In this document: one piece after another, positions 9,013-26,622 of the stretch
How positions within the stretch are numbered: the stretch's first letter is position 1
Layout: each line of letters opens with the position of its first letter
Origin: Aeromonas molluscorum 848
GTDB lineage: Bacteria > Pseudomonadota > Gammaproteobacteria > Enterobacterales > Aeromonadaceae
Length of the DNA: 64,000 nucleotides
Assembly: GCF_000388115.1 (NCBI RefSeq)
Contig: NZ_AQGQ01000002.1
Location: forward strand, 1-64,000
Direction of reading: 5' to 3'
Program-made: the position numbers and the translations under genes
The notes under the pieces: generated by a model
What the model was told of the DNA's origin: nothing
What the model saw: the letters and a program-made list of their open reading frames with translations, nothing else
Database searches by the model: none

Positions 9013-9795
9013 TTATCCAAACATGATTGCGGTGAGTATAAAATCCAGGCCGAGCACGGCCAGGGAGGAGTTGACCACGGTGCGGGTCGTGGCCTGGCTT
9101 ATCCCAGCCGAGGTGGGCTTGGCATCATAGCCGTTAAAGAGCGCAATCCAGGTGACGACCAAGGCGAAGATCACACTCTTGATGGCGCCCTGCATTATGT
9201 CGTCCTGCCAGTCTACCGCGGCCTGCATGGCTGACCAGAAGCCACCCTCATCGACTCCTAGCCAGTCTACACCGACTAATTTGGCACCCATGATGCCGAC
9301 CAGGCTGAACATGAAGGCCAGCAACGGCATGCTGATGACGCCTGCCCAGAAACGGGGCGCTACCACACGGCGCAGGGGATCGACCGCCATCATCTCCAGG
9401 CTGGAGAGCTGTTCGGTCGCCTTCATCAAGCCTATCTCGGCGGTGAGCGCTGAACCGGCTCGCCCTGCGAACAGCAGAGCCGTCACCACAGGACCCAGTT
9501 CACGGAGCAGGGAGAGGGAGACCAGCGGCCCCAGACTGCCTTCCGCACCGAAGTCTTTCAGTACGTTGTAACCCTGCAAGGAGAGCACCATACCGATGAA
9601 GAGACCGGAGACCAGGATGATGGCGACCGATTGCACCCCCACTACATAGAGCTGCTGGATAAGCAGCGGGAAGTGTTTGCACGGTTGCGGGCGACCAGCC
9701 AGGGCGTGAAACAGCATGATGGTCGCTCGTCCCATGGCGGTCAGAGACTGGATCCCGGATCGCCCCAACTGGGTTATTTGACTTATCAACATCAT
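9013..9795 (-). CDS. mlaE: MlaE, permease of the Mla transporter
   Basis: 260 residues, polytopic ABC permease of the MlaE/TTC class. It has the amphipathic N-terminal helix, five to six hydrophobic segments and the conserved [17 protein letters not shown] and [14 protein letters not shown] blocks, which couple to MlaF. The ATG at 9795 overlaps the mlaF stop (ATGA); a second ATG follows immediately. Confidence 0.95.
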
Positions 9796-14212: not shown

Positions 14213-15652
14213 ATGAAGCCGACACTCCAGTTGCGCCTCGGTCAGCAATTGACCATGACGCCACAGTTACAACAAGCGATTCGTCTGCTCCAGCTCTCCA
14301 CATTGGAACTTCAGCAGGAGATCCAGCAAGCCCTCGACAACAACCCCCTGCTCGAGCAAGAAGAGGCCGAGCTTCAGGAGACCCATGCAGAGGTCAAGCA
14401 AGACGAGAGTCAGCTCGACAGCAGCGATGCCATGGCCCAGGAACAGATGCCCGATGAGTTGCCGGTCGACAGCAGCTGGGATGACGTCTACTCCGCTGGT
14501 ACCGGTCAGAGTGCGGGTCCTGTCTTTGAGGGAGAAGACAGCGTCTACCAAGGTGAAACCACCGAGAACCTGCAAGATTACCTGCTGTGGCAGATGCGAC
14601 TCACCCCTTTTAGCGATGTTGATGCCGCCATCGCCCTGGCCATCATCGATGGCATTGACGAGTCCGGTTACCTGACCAGTACCCTGGAGGATATTCGGCA
14701 GGCGGTGACCAGCGAAGAGGTTGAGGTCGAGCTCGACGAGGTTGAAGCCGTGCTCAAGCGGGTGCAGCATTTCGATCCGGTTGGCATCGCCGCGCGCTCT
14801 GTGCAAGAGTGTCTGTTGATCCAGCTTGGCCAATTCAGCCCAGATCTGCCCTGGCTGGCCGAGGCGCAGGAGGTGATTGGCGAGCACATGGATTTGCTGG
14901 GCAATCGTGACTATCGCACCCTGGCGCGCAAGACCCGTCTCAAGGAGGGGGATCTCAAGGAGGTCATCGACCTTATCCAGCAGCTCGAGCCGAGGCCCGG
15001 CAACAGGGTAGTGCAGAGTGACTCTCAATATGTGATCCCGGATGTGTCTGTCATCAAGCGTCAGAATCGCTGGGTGGTGGAGCTCAATCCGGATTCGGCA
15101 CCGCGCATTCGGGTCAACGAGACCTATGCGGCCATGGCCCGCCAGGCGCGTACCAGTCAGGATACCCAATTCATTCGCTCCCATCTGCAAGATGCAAAAT
15201 GGTTCATCAAGAGTCTGGAGAGCCGCAATGAAACTCTGCTGAAAGTAGCCACTTGCATAGTGGAGCAGCAGCAGGGGTTCTTTGAATATGGCGAAGAGGC
15301 CATGAAACCCATGGTGCTCAACGACATCGCCGAGGCGGTCGAGATGCATGAATCGACTATTTCCCGGGTGACGACCCAGAAGTACATGCATACCCCGCGC
15401 GGCATCTTCGAACTGAAATATTTCTTCTCAAGTCACGTCAATACCGAAGGAGGAGGTGAATGCTCATCGACTGCAATTCGCGCCTTGATCAAGAAGCTGG
15501 TGACGGCGGAGAACCCGGCGAAACCGTTAAGTGATAGCAAGATCGCGGATTTGTTGGCCGAACAGGGTATTATGGTGGCACGACGCACGATCGCCAAATA
15601 CCGTGAATCCTTGTTGATACCACCGTCCAATCAGCGCAAATGCCTGGTTTAG
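14213..15652 (+). CDS. rpoN: RNA polymerase sigma-54 factor RpoN
   Basis: 479 residues. Region I is Gln-rich ([32 protein letters not shown]), region II is acidic, and the C-terminal RpoN box [11 protein letters not shown] recognises the -24 element. It directs enhancer-dependent transcription (nitrogen use, motility, virulence). Its position after lptB and before hpf-ptsN-rapZ-ptsO is the standard arrangement and links it to the nitrogen PTS. Confidence 0.97.
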
Positions 15653-15673
15653 GCAAAACAAAAGGAAGACGTT

Positions 15674-15961
15674 ATGCAAATTAACTTGACCGGACACCAC
15701 GTAGAGATCACCGAAGCGCTACGTGATTATGTGAATACCAAGTTTGCCAAACTCGAGCGTCACTTTGACCAGATCAACAATGTTCACGTGGTATTGAGCG
15801 TAGAAAAACTGAACCAGATTGCCGAAGCCAAGCTACACGTCAACGGGGGCGAAGTGTTCGCCAACTCACAGCATGCAGACATGTATGCCGCGATAGATAC
15901 CCTGATCGACAAACTTGATCGACAGATCATCAAGCACAAAGACAAGTTAAATCAAAAATAA
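15674..15961 (+). CDS. hpf: ribosome hibernation promoting factor HPF
   Basis: 95 residues, the short form of HPF. It binds the 30S decoding centre and helps form inactive 100S dimers in stationary phase. The sequence MQINLTGHHVEITEALRDYV and the C-terminal DTLIDKLDRQIIKHKDK are typical. The ATG at 15674 has AAGGA nine bases upstream, 21 bases after rpoN. Confidence 0.96.
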   Translation: MQINLTGHHVEITEALRDYVNTKFAKLERHFDQINNVHVVLSVEKLNQIAEAKLHVNGGEVFANSQHADMYAAIDTLIDKLDRQIIKHKDKLNQK

Positions 15962-15963
15962 CT

Positions 15964-16410
15964 ATGCAACTTGAACACATACTGAGTCGGGACTGCACCA
16001 AGAGTGCGGTCCCTTGTACCAGCAAGAAACGCGCCCTGGAAATCATCAGCGAACTGGCCGCCGAGCGGCTGGGGACCTCACGCCAGGCTCTGTTCGAATG
16101 CCTGCTTGCCCGCGAAAAGATGGGCAGTACCGGCATCGGTGCCGGGATCGCCATTCCCCACGGCCGTATCGGTGACGAGTTTCCGCCAACGGCTGTCCTG
16201 ATGACCTTCGCAGACCCCATTCCCTTCGATTCCATCGACAATCAGCCCGTCGATCTGCTCTTTGCCTTGCTGGTGCCGGAGAGTGAGTGCAAGCAGCACC
16301 TCAAGACTCTCTCCCTGATGGCATCCAAACTTGGTGACAAGGCGGTATGCCGCCAGTTGCGCCAGGCCAGCAGCGATGATGATCTCTATCAGATCATGAT
16401 CTCCGCCTGA
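15964..16410 (+). CDS. ptsN: nitrogen-regulatory PTS EIIA component PtsN
   Basis: 148 residues, EIIA of the fructose/mannitol type. His66 in AIPHGR is the phosphorylation site (His73 in E. coli). EIIA-Ntr is not a transporter part: it regulates potassium transport, the phosphate response and sigma-54-linked processes, depending on its phosphate state. It starts two bases after the hpf stop. Confidence 0.96.
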   Translation: MQLEHILSRDCTKSAVPCTSKKRALEIISELAAERLGTSRQALFECLLAREKMGSTGIGAGIAIPHGRIGDEFPPTAVLMTFADPIPFDSIDNQPVDLLFALLVPESECKQHLKTLSLMASKLGDKAVCRQLRQASSDDDLYQIMISA

Positions 16411-16457
16411 TGGGCATCACTCAGCTCTAATCATTCCTTGTTGTGGGAGGGCGCAAG

Positions 16458-17324
16458 ATGCAGCTCATCGTAGTCAGTGGCCGATCCGGGTCGGGCAAGA
16501 CAGTCGCCCTGCGGGTACTGGAAGATCTCGGGTATTACTGTGTCGACAACCTGCCGGTCAATTTGTTACCCCAGCTGATCGTCTCGGTACAGAGTCAGTA
16601 CGACAGGCTGGCGGTCAGCATAGATGTGCGTAATTTGCCCAGCGATCCGGAGCGGCTCGATACGCTACTGGCGCAGGTGCGCAATGATGGTCGGGTGCAG
16701 TACAGCAGCTTCTTCTTCGATGCGGAGAACAGCACCCTGCTCAAGCGTTACGGCGAAAGCCGCCGGCTGCACCCGCTGTCACGCAAGAGTCTCTCGTTGG
16801 ACGAGGCGATCCGTGAGGAGACCCACCTGCTGGCGCCGATCTCGGCCAGTGCCGATCTGCGCATCGACACCACAGGGCTCAGCATTCATGACCTGAGTGA
16901 ACTCATCAAGACCCGGGTGCTTGGCAAGAAAGAGAACGAGCTGGTGCTGGTGTTCGAGTCGTTTGGCTTCAAATACGGGATACCCAAGGATGCCGACTTC
17001 GTGTTCGATGCCCGCTTCCTGCCCAACCCGCACTGGATCCCTGAGCTCAAGCCTTTTACCGGCAAGGATGAGCCGGTGGCTCGCTACCTGGCCAGCCAGC
17101 CGGATGTGATGCAGTTCACCCTGCAGATAGAGAATATGCTGGCGACCTGGCTGCCAGCCCTGGAGCGCAATAACCGCAGCTACCTCACGGTCGGCATTGG
17201 CTGTACCGGTGGTCAGCACCGATCGGTGTTTATCGCCGAGCAGCTGGCCCGCACCTTCGAGGGGCTCGGCAAGAACGTGCAGATCCGCCATCGCACTCTG
17301 GACAAGCGCGACCCGCAACATTGA
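16458..17324 (+). CDS. rapZ: RNase adapter RapZ
   Basis: 288 residues. Walker [19 protein letters not shown] and the C-terminal [11 protein letters not shown] and RHRTLDKR blocks match E. coli RapZ, which guides RNase E to GlmZ and so sets GlmS levels for amino-sugar synthesis. A GTG at 16443 is in frame, but GGGAGG lies between it and the ATG at 16458, which makes the ATG the start. It sits between ptsN and ptsO as usual. Confidence 0.95.
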
Positions 17325-17343
17325 TGGCCCAACGGGAGGTCAG

Positions 17344-17616
17344 ATGACAGTTTCCGCCTCGGTAGAAGTGAAGAACAAGCTGGGCATGCATGCGCGTCCG
17401 GCCATGATGCTGTTCGAGCTGGTACAGGGTTTCGATGCCCATGTGCTGCTGCGTAACGAAGAGGGGGTCGAGGCCGATGCCGACAGCGTCATCGGCATGC
17501 TGATGCTCGATTCTGCCCAGGGCAAACAGGTGGAAGTGCAAGCCGAAGGGCCCCAGGAAGAGGCGGCCTTGGCCGCAGTGGTGGCGCTGTTCACCTCGGG
17601 TTTCAACGAGGAGTAG
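17344..17616 (+). CDS. ptsO: nitrogen PTS phosphocarrier NPr
   Basis: HPr-like protein of 90 residues. His16 in GMHARPA is the phosphorylation site; it passes phosphate from EI-Ntr to PtsN. The open frame extends far upstream inside rapZ, but GGGAGG before the ATG at 17344 fixes the start. It is the last gene of the rpoN-ptsO group and faces the accessory operon. Confidence 0.95.
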
Positions 17617-17620
17617 GATT

Positions 17621-17642
17621 GCCCCCTTTAGCTAGTGGGGGC
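17621..17642. terminator. hairpin between convergent ptsO and the PRD regulator
   Basis: Stem GCCCCC / GGGGGC with a ten-base loop that contains the stop codon of the minus-strand regulator. No T run on either side, so it is at best a weak terminator. Confidence 0.35.
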
Positions 17643-19566
17643 CTGTGCGTGCCAGCGCCTTGAAACTGGCGAAGTTTTCACAGGCCAGCAGACTCTTGCT
17701 GGCTTTCTCGTTCATCAGGCTGATGAAGAGATCATACAGGCCCATTGCCTCCTCATAGTCCCCCTTACTGATGGCCAGCACGAAGATGAGGCCGGCACTC
17801 TCGCCATTACCCCACTCTATGCCTTGTGGCGCCAGCACCGTATAGACGCAGGTTCGCTTGGCCAGCAGTCCGAGGGAGTGGGGCAGGGCTATGCCTTCCC
17901 CCAGCATGGTGGAGACGATGGCTTCACGCTCGAACAGGGAGGCGCGAAAGCCGGTCTCGACCATCTCTTCCGCTTCCAGCTGTTCACAGACTCGCGCCAG
18001 CAGCTGATGTTGGCTCATGGGCTCATCGAGGATGAGAAAGTGGCGCTCGCTGAAGTATTTGTCGAGCAGGTAGGGGCGGGTGCGGTCGATCAGCACCAGC
18101 TTGCCAAGCTGCTCCAGCTGATACTGGGTAGGGAAAGGATTGACCTGTACCACGGGGATGCCCTTCTCGCTCACCCGTACCGTGCTTATCACGAAATCCT
18201 GCTCCAGCTTGCCCAGCATCTCGTAGTCGCGCACCGAATCCAGAGTGGTAAACCTCAGTTGGGGGTATTCACGTCTGATGCTGGCTTCCAGTACCCGGAA
18301 GGTCGCGTTGCCTGCATCGCATAGCAGCAGGGCATGCGGGCGCCGCTCGTAGCCAATGTCGTAGTGACGTTCCAGTCCGACCCCTATGTGGATCACCAGG
18401 TAGCCTATCTCGTGGTCGGTGAGGCGATAGGGCGTTTGCCTGATCCACTCGGAGATGGCGGCAAGGGTGATGTCGTAGGCGAGGGGGTAGTGCTGCTTGA
18501 TGTGCTCGGCCAGCGGATTATGGCTGCCTACCTGGTATTTGACCCGCAGCAACATAGTGCTGATGTGGGTGAGCAGATCCCCGCGTAATTGGGGATCGTG
18601 ACGAAGGTCGTAGGGGAAATGCTGGTGGATATAGTCGAGCAGGTGGCTGACGAGCCGCTGACTCTCTGCGGTCATGGCTGGATTGAGCAGGGGGTTGTCG
18701 GCAATGACCCGCGCCTGGATCTGGATGGCCAGACAGGCCAGCTCGCTCGCACCTGGCGGCGTAAGGCTGGGCAGTTCCGCGAAGATGTCTCCGGCCGCCG
18801 CCAGCATGCTGTCGGTCAGGTCTTCGGTATCGAATTGAGCCAGTTCATGACCTGCGGCCAGCCGCAGCAAGGCGACGGCGCAATAGATGGTCAGCTGCTG
18901 CAGCCCCTCATCGGTCAGTCGTAACCGGTGGCGACCGAGCTGCTCGTGGATGCGATTGCCGAGCACCTCCAGGGTCTTGCTGGGACACAGGGTTGGCAGC
19001 AGACTCTGCAACTGGGTGTTATGAAGCAGCTCTTGAGAAAGCAGCTGGGTCAGGCAGGCGCGGATCGCCGTCTCCTCGCCCTGGATGCGCATGCCCAGAC
19101 GGGCCTTGCTCTCTATGGTCAGTCCGAAATGAGCCAGTCGCTCGCGTACCTCCGCCATGTCCCCCTGCAATGCCGCCCGGCTCAGATACCAGGTATCGGC
19201 CAAGTCCTCCAGCCGGATCCCCTGTTCGGCACTGAGCAGCATGACCTGCAGGTGCAACACCCGCTCCCGGCTGGTCCGTGGCAGGCTCGCCTCTTGCTGG
19301 CGGCTGGCAAGCAACGCATCGAAGAGCGCCTGGTTGTAGATCTTGAGCTGATAACCGGCCCCACGTTGATGAATGAGGTGAGCGCCGTGGTTGGCGATCA
19401 GCTCATTGAGGGTCGAGACATCGGTGCGTACTGTGCGGGTCGAGACCTGCAGGCGGCGCGCTAGCTCCTCCTGGGGCAAGGCTTGATCGCGCAGGGCATC
19501 CAGCAACTGGTTCAGACGGGGAGTAGGAAACTTCATAAGGGGACTGGGTCGCTCCGATCTGGCCAT
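17632..19566 (-). CDS. PRD-containing PTS-type transcription regulator (MtlR/LicR-like)
   Basis: 644 residues. Domains in order: winged HTH (about 12-72), second HTH (105-160), PRD1 (195-290), PRD2 (300-400), EIIB-like domain with Cys416 in LLLCDAGN, and EIIA domain with His563 in ALPHSL. Often labelled BglG antiterminator, but it has DNA-binding HTH modules and no RNA-binding CAT domain, so it should act on a promoter. PRD2 keeps His334 and His393; PRD1 has Gln282 and Tyr228 where the family has His. It is the last gene of the minus-strand operon and probably senses phosphate flux from its transporter. Start ATG 19566 or 19536; neither has a clear ribosome site. Confidence 0.85.
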   Translation of the reverse strand: MARSERPSPLMKFPTPRLNQLLDALRDQALPQEELARRLQVSTRTVRTDVSTLNELIANHGAHLIHQRGAGYQLKIYNQALFDALLASRQQEASLPRTSRERVLHLQVMLLSAEQGIRLEDLADTWYLSRAALQGDMAEVRERLAHFGLTIESKARLGMRIQGEETAIRACLTQLLSQELLHNTQLQSLLPTLCPSKTLEVLGNRIHEQLGRHRLRLTDEGLQQLTIYCAVALLRLAAGHELAQFDTEDLTDSMLAAAGDIFAELPSLTPPGASELACLAIQIQARVIADNPLLNPAMTAESQRLVSHLLDYIHQHFPYDLRHDPQLRGDLLTHISTMLLRVKYQVGSHNPLAEHIKQHYPLAYDITLAAISEWIRQTPYRLTDHEIGYLVIHIGVGLERHYDIGYERRPHALLLCDAGNATFRVLEASIRREYPQLRFTTLDSVRDYEMLGKLEQDFVISTVRVSEKGIPVVQVNPFPTQYQLEQLGKLVLIDRTRPYLLDKYFSERHFLILDEPMSQHQLLARVCEQLEAEEMVETGFRASLFEREAIVSTMLGEGIALPHSLGLLAKRTCVYTVLAPQGIEWGNGESAGLIFVLAISKGDYEEAMGLYDLFISLMNEKASKSLLACENFASFKALARTGPH

Positions 19567-19609
19567 GAGGGGATGAGGGATGGGATCATATCGACAAATC
19601 GTTCAATAG

Positions 19610-19638
19610 CCCAACCCGACCAGCTGAGTCGGGTTGGG
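19610..19638. repeat. strong hairpin ahead of the regulator gene
   Basis: Perfect 11-bp arms CCCAACCCGAC / GTCGGGTTGGG with a seven-base loop, between the aldolase stop and the regulator start. No T run follows on the minus strand, so it may damp or process the mRNA rather than terminate it fully. Confidence 0.55.
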
Positions 19639-19662
19639 TGCTCGCCAGCGTCTACCGCGATA

Positions 19663-20403
19663 TCAAGCCAGCAAGCGCTTGACGGTGGCTAGCAGGGTGC
19701 GCACATCCTCTGGCCGGGTCTCACCACTGGCCTGGTCGATGATGGAGCTGTAGATGTGCGGTATCACCTTTGCCACCCCCGCCTCCAGGGCAATGCGCAC
19801 TATCTCCTCGAAGTTGTCGAGATCGATGCCGCCGGTGGGCTCCAGCCAGAAGTCATGGCGGGCGCACGCCTCGGCCACAGCCACATACTCATCCCGGCAG
19901 GCGAGACCATTCATGGGGAAGAACTTGACCGAGCTGCCGCCCATGTCTTTCAGCAGGGCGATGGCGGTAGCGATGGGGACTATGCCATCGGCCTGCTGGG
20001 CACTGAGGGCGCCGGTGGAGATCTTCACCATGCCGGGGATGCCAGTCGGGGAAATGAGACCATTGACCAGGCTCTCGCTCTGACCAAGCAGCGCCCGGCT
20101 GGCGCCGACACCGGTAAACACCTGATTGACGTGTTGAGGCTGCAACTGGCCTGCCAGCTCGGCGACCATGGCCGACTGTTTGGGATCGCCCGCCCCCAGA
20201 CCGATGGAGAGGGCATTGTTGATGCGGCCCGCATAGTCGCACATGTCTGCCACCGCACTTGGGACATCGGGGTAGCTCTTGGAGAGGACGCCGACCAGCA
20301 CGTGGCCCTCGGCGGCTTCATAGACATCGACGGCATTCTGCTTGGAGCCCGCCAGCACATTGAGGCAGACGCGGTCACGGTAGTAGTTGGGGGTGAGGGA
20401 CAT
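19663..20403 (-). CDS. KDGP aldolase family protein (DgaF-like, EF_0839/AHA_3917 type)
   Basis: 246 residues. Predicted class I aldolase that splits 2-keto-3-deoxygluconate 6-phosphate, or a close analogue, into pyruvate and glyceraldehyde 3-phosphate. Lys160 in VKFFPMNG matches the Schiff-base lysine block of KDPG aldolases, and PTGGIDLDNFEEI forms the phosphate-binding end. In Salmonella, DgaF does this step for D-glucosaminate. The gene overlaps the preceding PLP enzyme by one base (TAATG), so the two are translated together. The exact substrate is inferred from the neighbour. Confidence 0.85.
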   Translation of the reverse strand: MSLTPNYYRDRVCLNVLAGSKQNAVDVYEAAEGHVLVGVLSKSYPDVPSAVADMCDYAGRINNALSIGLGAGDPKQSAMVAELAGQLQPQHVNQVFTGVGASRALLGQSESLVNGLISPTGIPGMVKISTGALSAQQADGIVPIATAIALLKDMGGSSVKFFPMNGLACRDEYVAVAEACARHDFWLEPTGGIDLDNFEEIVRIALEAGVAKVIPHIYSSIIDQASGETRPEDVRTLLATVKRLLA

Positions 20404-21518
20404 TAACGGGTCTCCTGGACAAGGTGAGCGATGGCGGTATGGATCTGGTCGAGCTGGGCTGCGCTGACGCTGCGTACGTCTATCTCGATATGGCCTTCAT
20501 TGGCTTTGTAGCCGCGACAGTAGATGGCCGGATTGCCCCCTTGCAGGCGCTGCACCAGCTGGGTCGTATTCATTGGGAGTCTGGCATGGTCGAAGGCAAT
20601 GTCGGTGCGGGCTATGTCTCGTCCGGCACTGTCCCAGATCACGCTGGCGCTGACGCCCGGCAGTTGATTCAACTGCTCGATGAAAGGGGTCATCTTGGCG
20701 ACCATGGCGGCGCCGCTCTCCTTCTCGCGGGCTAGGTAGCGCTCTATGGCATGGGTCAGGCCGAGGATCCCCTCCTTGCCGACCTTCATGGCACGGCCGA
20801 TGCCGTTGCTTTGCTGCTTGACCCACTCCACATACTGATGCTTGCCGAGTACCAGGCCACTGGTTGGGCCCTCGATGGCCTTGGCGCCACTGTAGATGAC
20901 CAGGTCGGCCCCGAGTCGATAGTAGAGCTGCAGATCCTCCTCGGCCGCCGCATCGACGATGAGCGGCAGCTGGTGGGCCTGGGCCACGTCGACCGCCTCT
21001 GCGACCGACAGCATGCTCTTCTGCACGCAGTGGTGGGATTTGATATAGAGGATGGCGGCGGTATTGGGCGTAATGGCCGCCGTCAGCTGGGCCGGACTGC
21101 ATTCGTTGGCATAACCCGCCTCGACCAGCTTGCCGCCGCCGAGGTTGATCATGGTGCCAACCGGGGCGCCGAAGTTCACGTTATGGCCCTTGGCCAACAC
21201 GATTTCGCTTGGCACCTGATGCGGGTGGGCATGCAGCTGTTCCAGACGGTAGGGATCGCCGCGCACTATCATGGCGGCCACCGATTGGGCGATGCCAGCG
21301 GAGGCGCAGGAGACCACTACGGCATCCTCTACGTCCAGCAGGCGGGCGATATAGGCGCCGGTCTTGTTGACCAGATCCTTCACCTCGAAGTAGTGATCCA
21401 GGCCGAAGTTGACCGCCTCGACCACCTCATGTTCCGGGGTGGATACCCCGAGGATGGTCATGCGGCCGGAGGCGTTGATCACCGGCTTGAGGTCATATTT
21501 TTCATAGACGGAAGACAT
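20403..21518 (-). CDS. DgaE-family PLP-dependent ammonia-lyase
   Basis: 371 residues from the ATG at 21518. SelA/cystathionine-like PLP fold: Lys213 in YSGAKAIEGPTSG binds PLP, and Asp189 in IVDAAAEED pairs with the ring nitrogen. Salmonella DgaE turns D-glucosaminate 6-phosphate into KDGP plus ammonia; this protein probably makes the keto-deoxy acid used by the next gene's aldolase. A longer start at 21533 exists, but GGGGA sits before 21518. The start lies inside the end of the amidohydrolase gene (17-base overlap). Confidence 0.85.
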   Translation of the reverse strand: MSSVYEKYDLKPVINASGRMTILGVSTPEHEVVEAVNFGLDHYFEVKDLVNKTGAYIARLLDVEDAVVVSCASAGIAQSVAAMIVRGDPYRLEQLHAHPHQVPSEIVLAKGHNVNFGAPVGTMINLGGGKLVEAGYANECSPAQLTAAITPNTAAILYIKSHHCVQKSMLSVAEAVDVAQAHQLPLIVDAAAEEDLQLYYRLGADLVIYSGAKAIEGPTSGLVLGKHQYVEWVKQQSNGIGRAMKVGKEGILGLTHAIERYLAREKESGAAMVAKMTPFIEQLNQLPGVSASVIWDSAGRDIARTDIAFDHARLPMNTTQLVQRLQGGNPAIYCRGYKANEGHIEIDVRSVSAAQLDQIHTAIAHLVQETR

Positions 21519-22638
21519 GATGAGATTCCCCATATTGAGTCAGAGTCAGTTTGCCGGCCACCAGAGCGGCGACAGGCATCAGCTGGTGGTCGCCGCTGCG
21601 GTGCTGCGCCTCGGTATCGGCGAACAGGTGCGGCTGGTGGGCCAGCTCGAACAGGGTCAGGTCGGCATCGGCCCCCACCGTCAGCCGCCCCTTGTCATGG
21701 AGGCGCAGGGCATCGGCGGCTCGGTCGGTGACGCAAGCGATGACCCGATCCAGAGGCAGGCCGATGGCCAAAAATTTGGACATGACGTGGGCCAGGCTGT
21801 AGACGGGGCCCTTGATGCGGTTTTTGCAGTAGATATCCGAGCTGATGGTGTCCGGCAGCACGCCTGCCTTGATGGCCTGCTCTGCCACCTCGAAGCTGAA
21901 GCTGGCGCCGCCGTGGCCTACGTCCATCAGCAAGCCGCGAGTCATGGCACTGCGCACTGAATGCCTGAGCTCTCCGGCAGGAGTCAGAATGCGATTGGGC
22001 TTGCCGTTATAGCAATGGGTCAGCAGATCGCCCTGGCCGAGCAGGGCGACCAGCTCATCCAGATCCGGCGGGGTGTTGCCCACATGCACCATGAGCGGCA
22101 GATTGCCGTTGTCGCGCTGGATCTGCTTGGCGATGCGCAGCGGCGCCAGGCCGTTCTCGCCCACCACGCTGCCACTCATCCGAGCCTTGATGCCGACGAT
22201 GAAGCCGGGGTGACGGCGGATGGCCGCCTGGGCCAGGTCCGGATCGATGTCGGTGCGGTTAGCCAGCTCATTTTGACGCAGCAGACCGATGCGGGAGATG
22301 TTGAGCAGGGCATGGACCCGGGTCTGGCATTGCTCCGTCAGTTCCTTGAACTCGTCCACATCGTCGGCGCCGGTGCTGCCGGCGTCGATGACGGTGGTGA
22401 CGCCGGCTTCGACTCCTATCTTGTCCGGCTCATCCTGATAGATGGGGGACTTGGAGTAGCAGTGGGTGTGGGAGTCTATCCAGCCGGCGCTGAGATAGAG
22501 GTTGCCAGCGAGATCCAGTTCGCGGCTGGCCTGGGCCGTGCCGAGTTGGCCGAGGGCGGCAATCTTGCCCGCTGCAATGGCCACATCGGTCAGCTCGCCG
22601 CAGGCCAGGCGTGCTCGCCTGAAGATGATGTCGTACAT
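21502..22638 (-). CDS. amidohydrolase/deacetylase family metallohydrolase (EF_0837/AHA_3915 type)
   Basis: 378 residues, TIM-barrel amidohydrolase related to D-aminoacylases and dihydroorotases. Metal ligands seen: His57 and His59 in DSHTHC, the carbamylated-Lys region VGIKARMSG, the His in MVHVGNTPP, LTHCYNG, and the catalytic Asp in TISSDIYCKN. It is cytoplasmic, with no signal peptide. Predicted to remove an N-acyl group before the DgaE-type lyase acts. The ATG at 22638 has GAGG five bases upstream, just past a long hairpin. Substrate unproven. Confidence 0.83.
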   Translation of the reverse strand: MYDIIFRRARLACGELTDVAIAAGKIAALGQLGTAQASRELDLAGNLYLSAGWIDSHTHCYSKSPIYQDEPDKIGVEAGVTTVIDAGSTGADDVDEFKELTEQCQTRVHALLNISRIGLLRQNELANRTDIDPDLAQAAIRRHPGFIVGIKARMSGSVVGENGLAPLRIAKQIQRDNGNLPLMVHVGNTPPDLDELVALLGQGDLLTHCYNGKPNRILTPAGELRHSVRSAMTRGLLMDVGHGGASFSFEVAEQAIKAGVLPDTISSDIYCKNRIKGPVYSLAHVMSKFLAIGLPLDRVIACVTDRAADALRLHDKGRLTVGADADLTLFELAHQPHLFADTEAQHRSGDHQLMPVAALVAGKLTLTQYGESHHVFRL

Positions 22639-22653
22639 AGGATGCCTCGCAGG

Positions 22654-22685
22654 TTCTGTTCGCCACCTTGGGGTGGCGAACAGAA
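22654..22685. repeat. 14-bp hairpin inside the accessory operon
   Basis: Perfect arms TTCTGTTCGCCACC / GGTGGCGAACAGAA with a four-base loop. It starts three bases after the DUF4310 stop and ends 15 bases before the amidohydrolase ATG. There is no T run, so it looks like an mRNA-stability or processing element separating the membrane genes from the enzyme genes. Confidence 0.7.
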
Positions 22686-22688
22686 GGG

Positions 22689-23339
22689 TCAGGAGATGGC
22701 GATCGGGAAGAAGGCTCCCAGCAGCATGGCGCCGAGTATGGCTCCGCCGGTGATGGGTTTGCCCCAGAGGTAGAACAGCAGGGCACCAAACAGGGATCCG
22801 AGTCCAATGGGGATGGAGGCCCCGATGGCGGAGAGGATGATCAAGGGGCCCAGGAAGCGGCCTGAGCTGTTGCCTGCCCCCATCATCACATCTGCCCCGT
22901 AGGTCGAGTCACTCTGGTTCACGGTAAATTTGCGCGCCAGTATGATGAGGCCGCCGATGGCGAGACCAATGACCATGCCGGTTGCAAGCGCGGCGCCAAA
23001 GTTCTCCACCGGGTACATGATGCCTGCGCCCATCAGCAGGGCAGGGATCCCCAAACCAACCCCGGTCTGGATGGCCCCGCCTATGTCGAGTATCCCCACC
23101 AGGGAGCCCTCGATGATGCGGGCAAACAGGAAGCTGGCCCCGAAGGCGGCGACGGCACCATAGACGCCGGTATCCATGCCAGCGCGCAGCATGGAGACGA
23201 AGGCCACTTCGTTGAAGGCACCCACGCCATAGAGGTAGTACATGTGGGTACCGGCAAAGACACCGGCCGAGAGCAGCCCGATGAAGATGGGGAAGGACCA
23301 GTCGGCATACCAGAAGTTGTTTCTCAGTTTCTCATCCAT
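22689..23339 (-). CDS. DUF4310 family membrane protein (EF_0833/AHA_3914 type)
   Basis: 216 residues from the ATG at 23339; an upstream in-frame start lies inside DUF4311 and is not needed. Mostly hydrophobic with about five to six membrane segments and Gly-rich helices (DIGGAIQTGVGLGIPALLMG). In other bacteria it always sits with DUF4311, DUF4312 and the SFCGS protein. I see no ATPase or binding protein in the operon, so these membrane proteins may form a secondary or PTS-like permease. Function not established. Confidence 0.8.
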   Translation of the reverse strand: MDEKLRNNFWYADWSFPIFIGLLSAGVFAGTHMYYLYGVGAFNEVAFVSMLRAGMDTGVYGAVAAFGASFLFARIIEGSLVGILDIGGAIQTGVGLGIPALLMGAGIMYPVENFGAALATGMVIGLAIGGLIILARKFTVNQSDSTYGADVMMGAGNSSGRFLGPLIILSAIGASIPIGLGSLFGALLFYLWGKPITGGAILGAMLLGAFFPIAIS

Positions 23340-23349
23340 GGGATAGCCC

Positions 23350-24126
23350 TTATTTGCTGCTAAGCAGGTTATGGACGTTATCCAGCCACAGGGGGATGCC
23401 CAGGTGGAAAGACTCAATCAGTTTCATGTCGAAGCCGCGGAAGAATCCGCTCAGCACGAACAGCAGCACGATGGCGGTCATCATTACCTTGGTGACATGG
23501 TTCCAGCCGCTCTCTTCCACGCCTTTACCGATCAGGATGCCAAGCACCAGGCCCGGTACTGCGTTACCCATGATGAGCTGGGCCAGCCCTCCGAAGATGG
23601 TGGCCCAGAAGCCGGACTTCTTGCCCGCTTCTATGGCCGCCAGCCAGAAGATCACCGGCATGATGGTGTTGACCAGCAGGTTTGCGGCGGGGACCAGCAC
23701 CTTGACCGCGGTCACCTGCAGCGCCTCTGGTACGGCGGCTGCCGTACTGTTGAGGAAGGCAACCACGATGGCACCAATGATGCCGCCAGCGATCGCCATC
23801 TTCTTGGGATCGTGCAAGGTCGTGGCCAGATCCCGGTTCTTGATCATCAACACGGCCGTGGCCCAGTGGGGGATGATGCGGTGATCCACGTCCTGGGTGA
23901 AGGCACCGGCCGCCACGGTTGAAGCCCAAGCGTTGAAGAAGAAGCCCAGACCGAAGGAGAAGTGGGAGGCAGGATCCCCTTCACAGGAGTTGAGCTCCCC
24001 CAGGGTACGAAATGCCCCCATGCCCTGTACTGTCGGTGCATGGAACATGCGGGCCGCTCCGGCCCCAACCCCGACCCCCACCAGGCCGCCGATGATCAGC
24101 GACTTGATAAAAATGATTAGAAACAT
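23350..24126 (-). CDS. DUF4311 family membrane protein (EF_0832/AHA_3913 type)
   Basis: 258 residues with about six to seven membrane segments. A conserved-looking soluble loop GELNSCEGDPASHFSFGLG follows the first helix, and NTIMPVIFWLAAIEAGKKSG and MGNAVPGLVLG occur between later helices. It starts 24 bases after DUF4312 and ends ten bases before DUF4310; with that protein it is the likely membrane channel of the system. The family has no assigned function that I know of. Confidence 0.8.
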   Translation of the reverse strand: MFLIIFIKSLIIGGLVGVGVGAGAARMFHAPTVQGMGAFRTLGELNSCEGDPASHFSFGLGFFFNAWASTVAAGAFTQDVDHRIIPHWATAVLMIKNRDLATTLHDPKKMAIAGGIIGAIVVAFLNSTAAAVPEALQVTAVKVLVPAANLLVNTIMPVIFWLAAIEAGKKSGFWATIFGGLAQLIMGNAVPGLVLGILIGKGVEESGWNHVTKVMMTAIVLLFVLSGFFRGFDMKLIESFHLGIPLWLDNVHNLLSSK

Positions 24127-24150
24127 GCAACCTATCCTTTTTGAATCGCG

Positions 24151-24447
24151 TTACACCCGGGTGAAGTCCACCTGTCGGGTATCGATCGCGTTGATGCTGA
24201 CCTGGATCTCGAGTTCGACCCGAAATTCGTGGCGTGTCCGTGGCAGGAAGAAGAACAGGAACTTCTCGACCCGGGTCGACTCCTCTGCCTTGAGCACCTT
24301 GACCGCGAGCGGTTCGACCCGCAGCAGCACCTGCTCTGTCTCCTTGAGCAGGTTTTGCTGCACCTTGCTGAGCGCGGCGGCAAAGGCTTGTTGCCGAGTG
24401 GAACCCTTTCCGCTCACGACCACCTGGCTGGTGAACTGGTGCTGCAT
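24151..24447 (-). CDS. DUF4312 family protein (EF_0831/AHA_3912 type)
   Basis: 98 residues, soluble, with alternating amphipathic strands and one helix (QQAFAAALSKVQQNLLKE). No catalytic motif, Cys or conserved His stands out. Its start overlaps the SFCGS stop by one base (TGATG), so the two small proteins are probably made in equal amounts and act together. It may be a cytoplasmic component of the DUF4310/4311 transporter; this is inference from gene order. Confidence 0.78.
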   Translation of the reverse strand: MQHQFTSQVVVSGKGSTRQQAFAAALSKVQQNLLKETEQVLLRVEPLAVKVLKAEESTRVEKFLFFFLPRTRHEFRVELEIQVSINAIDTRQVDFTRV

Positions 24448-24812
24448 CAGGCGCGCCCGTGCTTCTTGGCGAAGGCTTCGATCAGCTTCTGACCCAGCTC
24501 TTCCTTGTCCATGAAACCGAAGCCGAGCACCACACAGCCATCATTGATGGCGGTGACGCCCTCTTCGACGGAGCGCATGCCATAGCGGCACTTATAGCCG
24601 TATTTGGTCTGGGCCGTGATGGCGCCAGCGCCGCCGCTGCCACAGAAGGAGATGCCAAGATCCGCCTGCTCCTTGTTCATCACATCGCCAAGTTTCATGT
24701 CCGCGGCCATGCCGGGGATCACGGTGACCTCGGCCCCGGCCGCACTGGCACCGGCTCCTACTTTCTGACCTTTACCGAGACGATCGCCGATCACGAGTTT
24801 GATAGCTGACAT
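24447..24812 (-). CDS. SFCGS family glycine-rich protein (EF_0830/AHA_3911 type)
   Basis: 121 residues, soluble. The name-giving motif is ISFCGSGGAGAI, with Cys57; a second Cys75 lies in YKCRYGMRS. The N-terminus KLVIGDRLGKGQKVGAGASA could be a nucleotide- or phosphate-loop-like turn. Size and a reactive Cys recall PTS EIIB proteins, but the Cys position differs, so I do not call it EIIB. AAGGAG lies seven bases before the ATG, which directly follows the PRD-gene stop. Confidence 0.8.
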   Translation of the reverse strand: MSAIKLVIGDRLGKGQKVGAGASAAGAEVTVIPGMAADMKLGDVMNKEQADLGISFCGSGGAGAITAQTKYGYKCRYGMRSVEEGVTAINDGCVVLGFGFMDKEELGQKLIEAFAKKHGRA

Positions 24813-25169
24813 TTAGTGGTCTCCTTTGACTGAGCTGAGTTCATTTTCTTTGGCCACTTCGAAGTGGACAGATAACAGATGGGCTTCTTCATAGGCCAGG
24901 TTGTCTAGCCAGGCGACGACCTGTTCGGCCAGCCGCAGTGACAGGGGGGAGATCTCGTCAAACAGAGAGAGATCCACTTCCGGCAGGGCTTCGCCACTGT
25001 AAGAGCGCCACACCATGGCCTTGACGTGGGAGGCGAGCATCTGCTGCTGCACGTCATTGGGTACTATTCCGCGCTCGGCGAGCAGGGGATAGATGCGGGC
25101 CAGGGTATCGGTACTCTTGCGCGCTATCTGCGGGCTGCTGGGGGTGAGGCCGTGATTACTTGCTTGCAA
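24813..25169 (-). CDS. stand-alone PRD domain protein (EF_0829/AHA_3910 type)
   Basis: 118 residues. A single PTS regulation domain with the two expected histidines: His48 in LASHVKAM and His102 in LLSVHFEVAKE. No DNA- or RNA-binding domain is attached. The frame is open further upstream, but AGGAG lies eight bases before the TTG at 25169, and that start gives the usual length. First gene of the operon. It may be phosphorylated by PTS proteins and act on the transporter or on the PRD regulator at the other end; that role is inference. Confidence 0.78.
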   Translation of the reverse strand: MQASNHGLTPSSPQIARKSTDTLARIYPLLAERGIVPNDVQQQMLASHVKAMVWRSYSGEALPEVDLSLFDEISPLSLRLAEQVVAWLDNLAYEEAHLLSVHFEVAKENELSSVKGDH

Positions 25170-25350
25170 AGTCTTCTCTCCTGATGACGACGAGATGGTG
25201 ACGACGAGATATGGGATTACCCTATTCCTCCCCGGGAGGGACAGGGAGGCAGGCTTTTTCCACAAGCAAATGGAAATTCGGCGTCAGCGGTGCTGAGGGA
25301 GGGATTTTCTTGACCTGGATCCGGTGATTGGGTGTCAAGGGGGCTGAGGA

Positions 25351-25366
25351 TGTGAGCAACCTCACA
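25351..25366. promoter_or_regulatory. CRP binding site, promoter-proximal
   Basis: Perfect TGTGA-N6-TCACA. Centre at 25358.5, about 190 bases upstream of the PRD-gene start. A GAAAAT -10-like hexamer at 25309-25304 (minus strand) would place the centre at -61.5, the classic class I activation position. Confidence 0.8.
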
Positions 25367-25375
25367 GCTCGGTGG

Positions 25376-25389
25376 CGCAAGCGCTTGCG
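25376..25389. promoter_or_regulatory. 14-bp palindromic operator, LacI-family type
   Basis: CGCAAGCGCTTGCG, a perfect palindrome. The core AAGCGCTT fits the AAnCGnTT pattern of LacI-family operators. It lies between the two CRP boxes. No LacI-family gene is in the window, so the binder is unknown; the PRD regulator is the other candidate. Confidence 0.6.
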
Positions 25390-25406
25390 AAGCCAGGTGC
25401 AGGAAG

Positions 25407-25422
25407 TGTGACCTTGTTCACA
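25407..25422. promoter_or_regulatory. CRP binding site, distal
   Basis: Second perfect TGTGA-N6-TCACA, centred 56 bp from the first. It lies close behind degS, whose stop is at 25498, but points to control of the accessory operon because degS is transcribed towards it. Confidence 0.75.
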
Positions 25423-25459
25423 TCAGGGAAGGAGGGCAGTGGGGGCGTGGGAGTCAGAT

Positions 25460-25485
25460 GGCGGACGGAATGAGTCCCGTCCGCC
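25460..25485 (-). terminator. hairpin after degS
   Basis: Arms GGCGGACGG / CCGTCCGCC with an eight-base loop, 12 bases after the degS stop. No T run follows, so termination may be incomplete. Confidence 0.5.
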
Positions 25486-25497
25486 TCAGGGTCAGGG

Positions 25498-26622
25498 TCA
25501 GCTGGCGCTGGCCGCACTGGTGGCGTCTTGCTGGTTCTGGTAGCGCAGGTCTTCTTCTATGGTCACCGTCAGTTCGAGAGGCTTGCCGTCGCGGATCACC
25601 GAAATCTTCATCTGGGCGCCGGGTCGGCTCTCGACAATCCTATCCATGGCGGCCCGGACGCCGCTGATGGCCTCGCCATTGATCTTGAGCAGCACATCCC
25701 CTCGTTGCATACCGCCCTTGGCGGCAGGGCCGGCAGGATCCAGGCTTTCGACCACCAGGCCACGCAGATCACCCAGGTTCATCATGCGCGCCACTATGGG
25801 ATTGATCTCGACGCTGGAGATGCCGAGATAGCCACGGATGACCCGGCCATTGGCGATCAACTCGTCCATGATGCGTTTGGCCAGGCGATAGGGGATGGCG
25901 AAGCTGATACCGTAGCTCTCCTGGTTGCCGTTCAGGTGATAGGCGGCGGTGTTGATACCGACCAGGTTGCCATTGGTATTGACCAGGGCCCCCCCTGAAT
26001 TGCCCTCGTTGATGGCGGCATCGGTCTGCAGCAGATCCTGACGGCCATTGCTGTCAGGCCCCATGCTGGAGAGACCGAGGCGACCCGTGGCGCTGATGAT
26101 GCCCTGAGTGATGGTCTGACCGACGTTATAGGGGTTGCCGATGGCGAGCACCACATCCCCGACGTCTGGGCGAAGATCGGGATCCTGGGGGATCACCGGC
26201 AGGTTGTCTGACTCGATATAGAGTACGGCCAAGTCGGTGAGCTTGTCGGTACCGACCAGCTCCGCGCTGTACACTCGGCCATCTTGCAGTGCGACTATGA
26301 TCTGGTCCGCATCGGCGATGACATGGTAGTTGGTCAGCACATGGCCACGCTGGTTCATGATGACCCCGGAGCCCAGCCCCTGGGGCCTGAGTTCGGCTTT
26401 CTCGCCACGATTTCCGGCGAAACTGCGGGTGTAGATATTGACCACGGCAGGACCTGCGCGGTGGGCGGCATAGGAGAAGCTCATCTCCCGGCTGTTACTG
26501 ATGAGGTCGGGCAGCAGGGCGCCGCCTTTGAGGCTGGGGAAGAACAGCAGTAATAGGGCCGCGACCATGAGGCCAAAGGCGATTGACTTACCCAAGTAGC
26601 TGATCAGAGGTGGGATTTTCAT
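25498..26622 (-). CDS. degS: site-1 envelope stress protease DegS
   Basis: 374 residues. One N-terminal membrane anchor (SIAFGLMVAALLLLFFPSL), a trypsin-like domain with catalytic His in TNYHVIADADQ, Asp in TDLAVLYIE and Ser in GNSGGALVN, and a single PDZ domain (about 265-355). DegS senses misfolded porin C-termini through the PDZ and cuts RseA, releasing sigma-E. It follows degQ on the same strand but a terminator lies between them, so it probably has its own promoter. ATG at 26622. Confidence 0.95.
   Translation of the reverse strand: MKIPPLISYLGKSIAFGLMVAALLLLFFPSLKGGALLPDLISNSREMSFSYAAHRAGPAVVNIYTRSFAGNRGEKAELRPQGLGSGVIMNQRGHVLTNYHVIADADQIIVALQDGRVYSAELVGTDKLTDLAVLYIESDNLPVIPQDPDLRPDVGDVVLAIGNPYNVGQTITQGIISATGRLGLSSMGPDSNGRQDLLQTDAAINEGNSGGALVNTNGNLVGINTAAYHLNGNQESYGISFAIPYRLAKRIMDELIANGRVIRGYLGISSVEINPIVARMMNLGDLRGLVVESLDPAGPAAKGGMQRGDVLLKINGEAISGVRAAMDRIVESRPGAQMKISVIRDGKPLELTVTIEEDLRYQNQQDATSAASAS

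Follow-up and report, generated by a model that had tools for sequence, protein, structure and literature searches.

Which nutrient does a nine-gene operon of Aeromonas molluscorum 848 take up, how does that nutrient cross the membrane, and where does the phosphate that its enzymes seem to need come from? The operon lies in the stretch of 64,000 nucleotides analyzed here, called the window below (assembly GCF_000388115.1, contig NZ_AQGQ01000002.1, positions 1 to 64,000). Tentatively, and with a little less than even confidence, we propose that it imports an N-acylated 2-amino-2-deoxy-aldonate, most likely N-acetyl-D-glucosaminate, by coupling to the phosphotransferase system (PTS), and converts it to pyruvate and glyceraldehyde-3-phosphate. 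The enzymatic route is read from protein families and residues, while transporter type and substrate are what we infer around it.

In this scheme, DUF4311 and DUF4310 would form the membrane part, with SFCGS and DUF4312 as cytoplasmic partners, and phosphoenolpyruvate (PEP) would supply the lyase's phosphate during uptake through enzyme I (EI) and HPr. The amidohydrolase, judging from its family and its gene pairing, would then take off the acyl group. Next, a DgaE-type lyase would eliminate ammonia to give 2-keto-3-deoxygluconate-6-phosphate, as its family and active-site residues suggest, and a DgaF-type aldolase, which passes its equivalog cut-off, would split this product. A PRD regulator would sense PTS phosphorylation and act at a TTTCC-N10-GGAAA operator, with additional CRP control in Aeromonas; conservation shows both kinds of site, and the pairing of regulator and operator is likely rather than observed.

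A conserved nine-gene cassette

Nine reading frames, all on the minus strand, occupy positions 17632-25265 of the window. The features of the operon are as follows.

17632..19566, minus strand: transcription regulator with HTH_11, Mga, PRD, EIIB-like (Cys416) and EIIA-2 (His563) parts (Pfam, alignment rows)
19663..20403, minus strand: KDGP aldolase of DgaF type (TIGR03581, 386.6 bits; NF047796, 378.4 bits; solved relatives 3m0z, 3lm7, 3nzr)
20403..21533, minus strand: DgaE-family ammonia lyase dependent on pyridoxal phosphate (PLP) (TIGR01437, 611.7 bits; putative PLP Lys218)
21502..22638, minus strand: amidohydrolase/deacetylase (TIGR03583, 544.7 bits, cut-off 432.15; solved relatives 8wzy, 2ics, 2ogj)
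22689..23339, minus strand: DUF4310 membrane protein (TIGR03579, PF14187)
23350..24126, minus strand: DUF4311 membrane protein (TIGR03580, PF14188)
24151..24447, minus strand: DUF4312 small soluble protein, predicted beta-alpha-beta-beta (TIGR03578, PF14189, model)
24447..24812, minus strand: SFCGS protein with predicted RpiB/LacAB fold and invariant Cys57 (TIGR03577, model)
24813..25169, minus strand: small PRD-domain protein with a probable TTG start (TIGR03582; start from GGAGAG)
25257..25276, no strand: operator-like palindrome TTTCC-N10-GGAAA (conservation across related loci)
25351..25366, no strand: perfect CRP-type site (motif search of the window)
25407..25422, no strand: perfect CRP-type site (motif search of the window)

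A preliminary description, made from the DNA letters and their translations, had placed the operon at 17632-25422. Its genes and their order stand; position 25422 coincides with the outer boundary of a CRP-type site, and no gene ends there. The gene ends, described there as overlapping or nearly touching, lie -32 to +24 bases apart for most genes, but gaps of 50 bases before the amidohydrolase and 96 bases before the regulator depart from this pattern. The family names it had given, after Enterococcus faecalis (EF_08xx) and Aeromonas hydrophila (AHA_39xx) are borne out by NCBIfam: eight of the nine proteins pass curated cut-offs (TIGR03582, 03577, 03578, 03580, 03579, 03583, 01437 and 03581), and seven of these eight bear the EF_08xx and mostly the AHA_39xx family names. 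No NCBIfam model passes its curated cut-off for the ninth, the long regulator. Two of the starts first called need correction: TTG 25169, which follows a GGAGAG ribosome site, is the most likely start of the small PRD gene, and ATG 23339 that of DUF4310.

Linkage was counted in two collections. In an evenly drawn sample of 398 genomes from the phylum, the window's own included, DUF4311 exceeds its cut-off in 12, and TIGR03583 and TIGR01437 exceed theirs in the same 12; weaker relatives of these two families, found in about half of the 398 genomes, were left uncounted. The order of the nine genes is unchanged in all 11 other cassette genomes of this sample; in some, genes have been added before the regulator. 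The second collection comprises the best 80 of 497 stretches encoding a relative, from a scan of named genomes: 17 Aeromonas loci, many from other Gammaproteobacteria and one labelled Xenophilus, with more distant relatives falling outside it. All nine genes are present in 76 of these 80 related loci by reading frame and in 77 by tblastn, the 77th (L081) having its SFCGS spread over two frames. Two incomplete loci (L040, L109) end at a contig edge, and in L095 tblastn found no regulator in the 1.4 kb remaining past the aldolase. The preliminary description had named separate inheritance of membrane genes and enzymes as grounds for dropping its proposal; instead they travel together. The linkage is far beyond chance, and the cassette is a true unit.

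The cassette also reaches Alphaproteobacteria and Bacillota, on two Bartonella plasmids and in one E. faecalis plasmid record. DUF4311 of the window shares 99% identity with the Aeromonas rivuli protein (L030), 74% with the Bartonella protein and 69% with the E. faecalis protein. The proteins best conserved towards Bartonella are DUF4311, DUF4310 and SFCGS, at 72-77%, with the aldolase at 67%. Since the cassette moves whole between distant bacteria, plasmids included, it probably meets a real nutrient need.

Some observations concern individual loci. In L081, a Pantoea brenneri record, SFCGS lies in two frames at 9207-9562, through either a frameshift or a sequencing error. DUF4311 carries a short N-terminal extension in L061, L084, L095 and L108 (Leminorella, Budvicia and an Enterobacteriaceae metagenome-assembled genome). 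Weak DUF4311 matches in two genomes (L014, L015) were dropped once a DjlA-like protein was recognized there by eye. The operon of the window adjoins rpoN-like, ptsN-like, rapZ-like and HPr-like genes (14213-17616, named by eye), and this site beside nitrogen PTS genes recurs in other genera, with RapZ-, PtsN- and RpoN-like clusters each lying downstream in 30 of the 80 related loci.

The enzymes and a probably phosphorylated lyase substrate

Deacylation, elimination of ammonia and cleavage had been suggested as a coherent route, and the enzyme families fit all three steps. The aldolase passes the KDPG-aldolase equivalog NF047796 (378.4 bits against a cut-off of 300). The lyase stays below NF047797, the D-glucosaminate-6-phosphate lyase equivalog, scoring 389.7 bits against a cut-off of 600. 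In the amidohydrolase, the putative metal-site residues His57, His59, Lys151, His185, His208 and Asp268 are kept in 82 of 82 alignment rows. The aldolase frame is intact in the other loci and interrupted in the E. faecalis plasmid record (L028, 16573-17315, two tblastn frames), which may be why no aldolase gene is listed there.

Lyase residues argue for a phosphorylated substrate. Manual docking of the Salmonella lyase placed the substrate phosphate near Arg301, Arg332 and Arg346 (PMC9529869). These residues align with Arg309, Arg340 and Arg354 of the window lyase, which, like the putative PLP Lys218, are kept in 82 of 82 rows. At the position of His162 in the Salmonella lyase, 81 of 82 rows have His, and Bartonella alone differs. 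All three arginines also occur in two true DgaE lyases and in the solved chain 8t7j, whose function is unstated. Four lyases from clusters that lack the cassette (L205, L206, L207 and L210) score below both lyase cut-offs; they retain the first and second arginine, and their third position is Cys. Because the cassette keeps all three while these four do not, its lyase substrate is probably phosphorylated, and in this small sample the third arginine appears to go with lyases in a phosphate-type context.

These other clusters are informative in their own right. In L205-L207, a DgaE-like lyase has an amidohydrolase relative no more than a few kilobases away, so that deacylase-like and lyase-like genes recur together outside this cassette. 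Both L205 and L206 encode family-5 solute-binding proteins; L205 adds a permease as well as a RidA-type protein. Perhaps these three loci represent a second, non-phosphorylated type of pathway.

Where the phosphate may come from

The lyase seems to need a phosphate, and a Pfam scan of the nine genes returned no kinase family. Both points favor PTS phosphate, as do the PRD, EIIB-like and EIIA-2 parts of the regulator. A further clue comes from Bartonella, where both plasmids carry an HPr-EI fusion directly after the nine genes. Pfam identifies the HPr and EI domains in one fusion, and the other is 99.7% identical to it. Alphaproteobacteria are described as having no PTS permeases and only a regulatory relay (PMC2937029). 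Since the Bartonella plasmids belong to this class and bring their own HPr-EI beside the cassette, the fusion gives a hint that the cassette uses PTS phosphate. We place PTS coupling itself at about even odds. Relatives of the fusion, about 54-55% identical to the Bartonella plasmid protein, occur on large replicons of Caballeronia and Paraburkholderia (H26-H32).

A competing explanation needs no PTS. DUF4311 and DUF4310 could form an ordinary importer, for instance an ion-coupled one, in which case the acid would enter unphosphorylated and be deacylated and deaminated, and a 2-keto-3-deoxygluconate (KDG) kinase encoded elsewhere would add the phosphate before the aldolase acts. The genomes lend this some weight: a KDG kinase equivalog exceeds its cut-off in 14 of the 17 DUF4311-bearing genomes, making an unphosphorylated route possible for them, and the four transport-associated proteins match no PTS family in Pfam. 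The E. faecalis cluster additionally contains a PfkB protein with KDG-kinase-type matches. On the other hand, three Aeromonas genomes (G630, G639 and G644) have DUF4311 and no KDG kinase over the cut-off, the invariant third arginine contrasts with the Cys of the four other lyases, and the Bartonella HPr-EI fusion is carried with the cassette. Overall, we consider an ordinary importer unlikely.

Membrane and associated proteins

The literature searched contained no paper naming DUF4310, DUF4311 or DUF4312, and NCBIfam lists these families as conserved hypothetical proteins. Among the nine proteins, only DUF4311 and DUF4310 have several membrane-length hydrophobic stretches, and as a pair they match no known transporter. 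The EIIA-2 domain of the regulator is the only PTS permease-type domain that Pfam recognizes in the operon. Profile searches of solved structures gave nothing significant for the two membrane proteins (best E 2.3 for DUF4311, no match for DUF4310), and their tandem model, with a mean predicted local distance difference test (pLDDT) score of 46, yielded no usable fold. All seven DUF4311 members matched DUF2232, at best with E 0.0079. DUF4312 has no invariant His or Cys among six sequences.

SFCGS gave a more telling model. Modelled in tandem with DUF4312 (mean pLDDT 85), its best Foldseek matches are ribose-5-phosphate isomerase B (RpiB) and galactose-6-phosphate isomerase, with a best E of 3.5e-5. 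A VIA-align comparison gave Z 13.1 to RpiB over 115-117 residues, at a root-mean-square deviation of 2.6-2.9 angstrom, and 8.3 for the first row outside the RpiB/LacAB family. SFCGS is thus predicted to have the RpiB/LacAB fold. Pfam scores SFCGS at 14.7 bits against LacAB_rpiB, below the gathering score of 24.7; five of six SFCGS members match this family below the cut-off (E from 0.011 up to 5), and two of six match DUF2620 (best E 0.0047). An ordinary EIIB was also considered and set aside, with none among the 50 best structural rows, a result that is no proof of absence.

Does this fold make SFCGS a pathway enzyme, an isomerase or epimerase akin to RpiB/LacAB, that stands outside the transporter? 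The catalytic Cys of RpiB aligns with SFCGS Cys57, which is kept in 83 of 83 rows. However, RpiB position 99 aligns with Asn90 (the solved chain compared is an H99N mutant); RpiB uses its Cys in catalysis and His99 in ring opening. Moreover, the proposed route needs no isomerase, and a possible relative, DUF2620 (YhfU), also adjoins a membrane protein. An isomerase role therefore looks rather improbable.

A bolder possibility is that DUF4311, DUF4310, DUF4312 and SFCGS constitute a new class of PEP-dependent group translocator. The RpiB-fold protein, phosphorylated on its Cys, would serve as enzyme IIB and take its phosphate from an EIIA, either the one within the PRD regulator or a different one; a member of the same class may be encoded in the E. 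coli yhf operon. We regard this as doubtful and give it a low probability. If it holds, a PTS permease based on the fold of an isomerase would be a novelty.

Clues to the substrate

Two genomes, G370 and G166, carry the cassette together with a separate true DgaE (708.9 and 710.9 bits, cut-off 600). In G370, the neighbors of this DgaE are IIB, IIC and IID of the mannose/sorbose family and a PRD activator of sigma-54 type. Since these genomes hold a true DgaE apart from the cassette, whose own lyase falls below the DgaE cut-off, an N-acylated acid appears a likelier substrate than free glucosaminate. In 23 of the 80 related loci, a beta-propeller lactonase gene sits within the cassette, before the regulator; the Klebsiella copy belongs to PF10282, and several copies begin with a stretch that resembles a signal peptide by eye. 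This suggests an aldonic acid formed by the opening of a lactone before uptake, and perhaps outside the cytoplasm.

The substrate could instead be another N-acylated 2-amino acid phosphate, for example one derived from peptidoglycan, or an N-acyl-hexosaminate with a different acyl group or stereochemistry. Elimination of ammonia erases the configuration at C2 and C3, which cannot be read back from the product, and the lyase's place below the DgaE equivalog leaves room for such a compound. In E. faecalis, the cluster includes a MupG-family gene and a lactose/cellobiose-family IIC, yet neither the MupG nor the extra IIC has a match in the 80 related loci. The aldolase, for its part, passes the KDPG model. 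A different substrate of this sort is somewhat unlikely, in our judgment.

Regulation of the cassette

The 20-base palindrome at 25257-25276, upstream of the operon, is the sole site of its kind in the window. Its consensus, TTTCC..TT..AA..GGAAA, occurs with at most two mismatches in 79 of the 80 related loci versus 5 of 1485 background stretches, and the Klebsiella and Bartonella records carry it too. The window's own copy has a changed core with two mismatches and does not match the strict form. Outside the genus, 10 of 11 cassette genomes have the strict operator at a single place, in each case just upstream of DUF4311 by coordinates. It is found in 16 of 19 Aeromonas genomes, at one place in 15 and with a second place in G639; this second copy (L241, end of C73) lies 12 bases from a contig end. 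In 12 other relatives, few of which were screened for the cassette, the strict form is absent.

Perfect CRP-type sites occur in the window at these two positions and nowhere else, against an expectation of 0.11: 25351-25366 and 25407-25422. A CRP-type site with at most one mismatch lies upstream in all 17 Aeromonas loci but in only 24 of the 80 loci overall (background 7 of 1496 stretches), and from this pattern CRP control is read as mainly an Aeromonas feature. Between the two sites, the perfect palindrome CGCAAGCGCTTGCG at 25376-25389 is unique in the window; it was discarded as a candidate, since an alignment of upstream regions from 17 other Aeromonas loci does not preserve it. Within 17300-25700, promoter-like and terminator-like sites are no more frequent than chance, and Rfam returned no family.

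The regulator most plausibly paired with the operator is the long one encoded by the operon. Pfam finds HTH, Mga, PRD and EIIA-2 domains in it, accompanied by an EIIB-like stretch. Cys416 in the EIIB-like part is kept in 77 of 83 rows (three have Thr and three gaps), and His563 in the EIIA part in 79 of 83, the remaining four being gaps. The protein thus combines a PRD, an EIIB-like Cys and an EIIA His, the set by which PTS-responsive regulators of the PRD type were recognized.

Weighing the proposal

Several observations weigh against PTS-coupled import of N-acetyl-D-glucosaminate. Pfam scans of DUF4310, DUF4311, DUF4312 and SFCGS found no PTS family and no EIIB or EIIC domain, and the predicted fold of SFCGS resembles an isomerase, not an EIIB. 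The KDG kinases counted above belong here, as does the fact that the arginine argument is based on four lyases, and the Bartonella HPr-EI could serve the PRD regulator alone. E. faecalis departs in further ways: its regulator, one of the four gaps at His563, has no alignable EIIA part; its stretch has no operator at up to two mismatches; its PfkB protein has KDG-kinase-type models as best NCBIfam matches, none over the cut-off; and with its second PTS IIC and MupG-type protein, the substrate there may differ. Finally, the (R)-selectivity of relatives of the amidohydrolase, with a preference for acetyl-(R)-mandelate, found no support in the literature searched.

With a substrate class named, an operator located and a link to the PTS possible, a transporter that long went unassigned is open to direct tests. 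This analysis contributes the operator, the predicted RpiB fold of SFCGS, the argument from the phosphate site, the link to Bartonella and the counts of linkage.

Comparison with known systems

The E. coli yhf operon, with its PRD protein YhfY, DUF2620 protein YhfU, membrane protein YhfT and PLP enzyme YhfS, has a similar layout and differs in having no KDGP aldolase. Such clusters of a PRD protein, DUF2620, YhfT and PLP enzymes were observed in E. coli (L110, 1936-9345) and on a Cetobacterium plasmid (L143, 6294-14657). Profile comparison gave probabilities of 73 for DgaE-YhfS, 30 for small PRD-YhfY and 4.5 for SFCGS-YhfU, only the first two above noise. SFCGS and DUF2620 may be related, given the DUF2620 matches of SFCGS members and a match of YhfU itself to LacAB_rpiB at E 0.065; but with hidden Markov models (HMMs), SFCGS-YhfU scores beat the best of 217 decoys in one of seven cases one way and in none of seven the other way. 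DUF4311 and DUF4310 were also considered as two halves of YhfT: similar motifs were noticed by eye, but the HMM scores did not rise above those of shuffled and reversed decoys and the profiles aligned poorly, so the idea was not retained.

Compared with RpiB/LacAB, SFCGS is alike in predicted fold and in the aligned catalytic Cys, and it differs by the Asn at the His99 position and by its sub-gathering Pfam score. The closest counterparts of the whole operon are the EF_0829-EF_0839 and AHA_3910-AHA_3917 sets, which share its families. Gene order is shared as well, except for the position of the regulator, which leads the operon in E. faecalis, and for the extra genes there: a lactose/cellobiose-family IIC, a MupG-type protein and a PfkB kinase. 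A study of urinary E. faecalis isolates mentions dgaF (PMC10746210).

The Salmonella dga system (DgaABCDEF) offers the most direct enzymatic parallel. There, uptake genes are of the mannose PTS family; the window operon lacks these and has instead an amidohydrolase and the four SFCGS/DUF431x genes. Its lyase falls below the DgaE equivalog, and true DgaE occurs separately in G370 and G166. Both systems nevertheless use the same PLP ammonia lyase family, with the three phosphate-site arginines kept, and the same aldolase family, and 2-keto-3-deoxygluconate-6-phosphate is likely their common intermediate.

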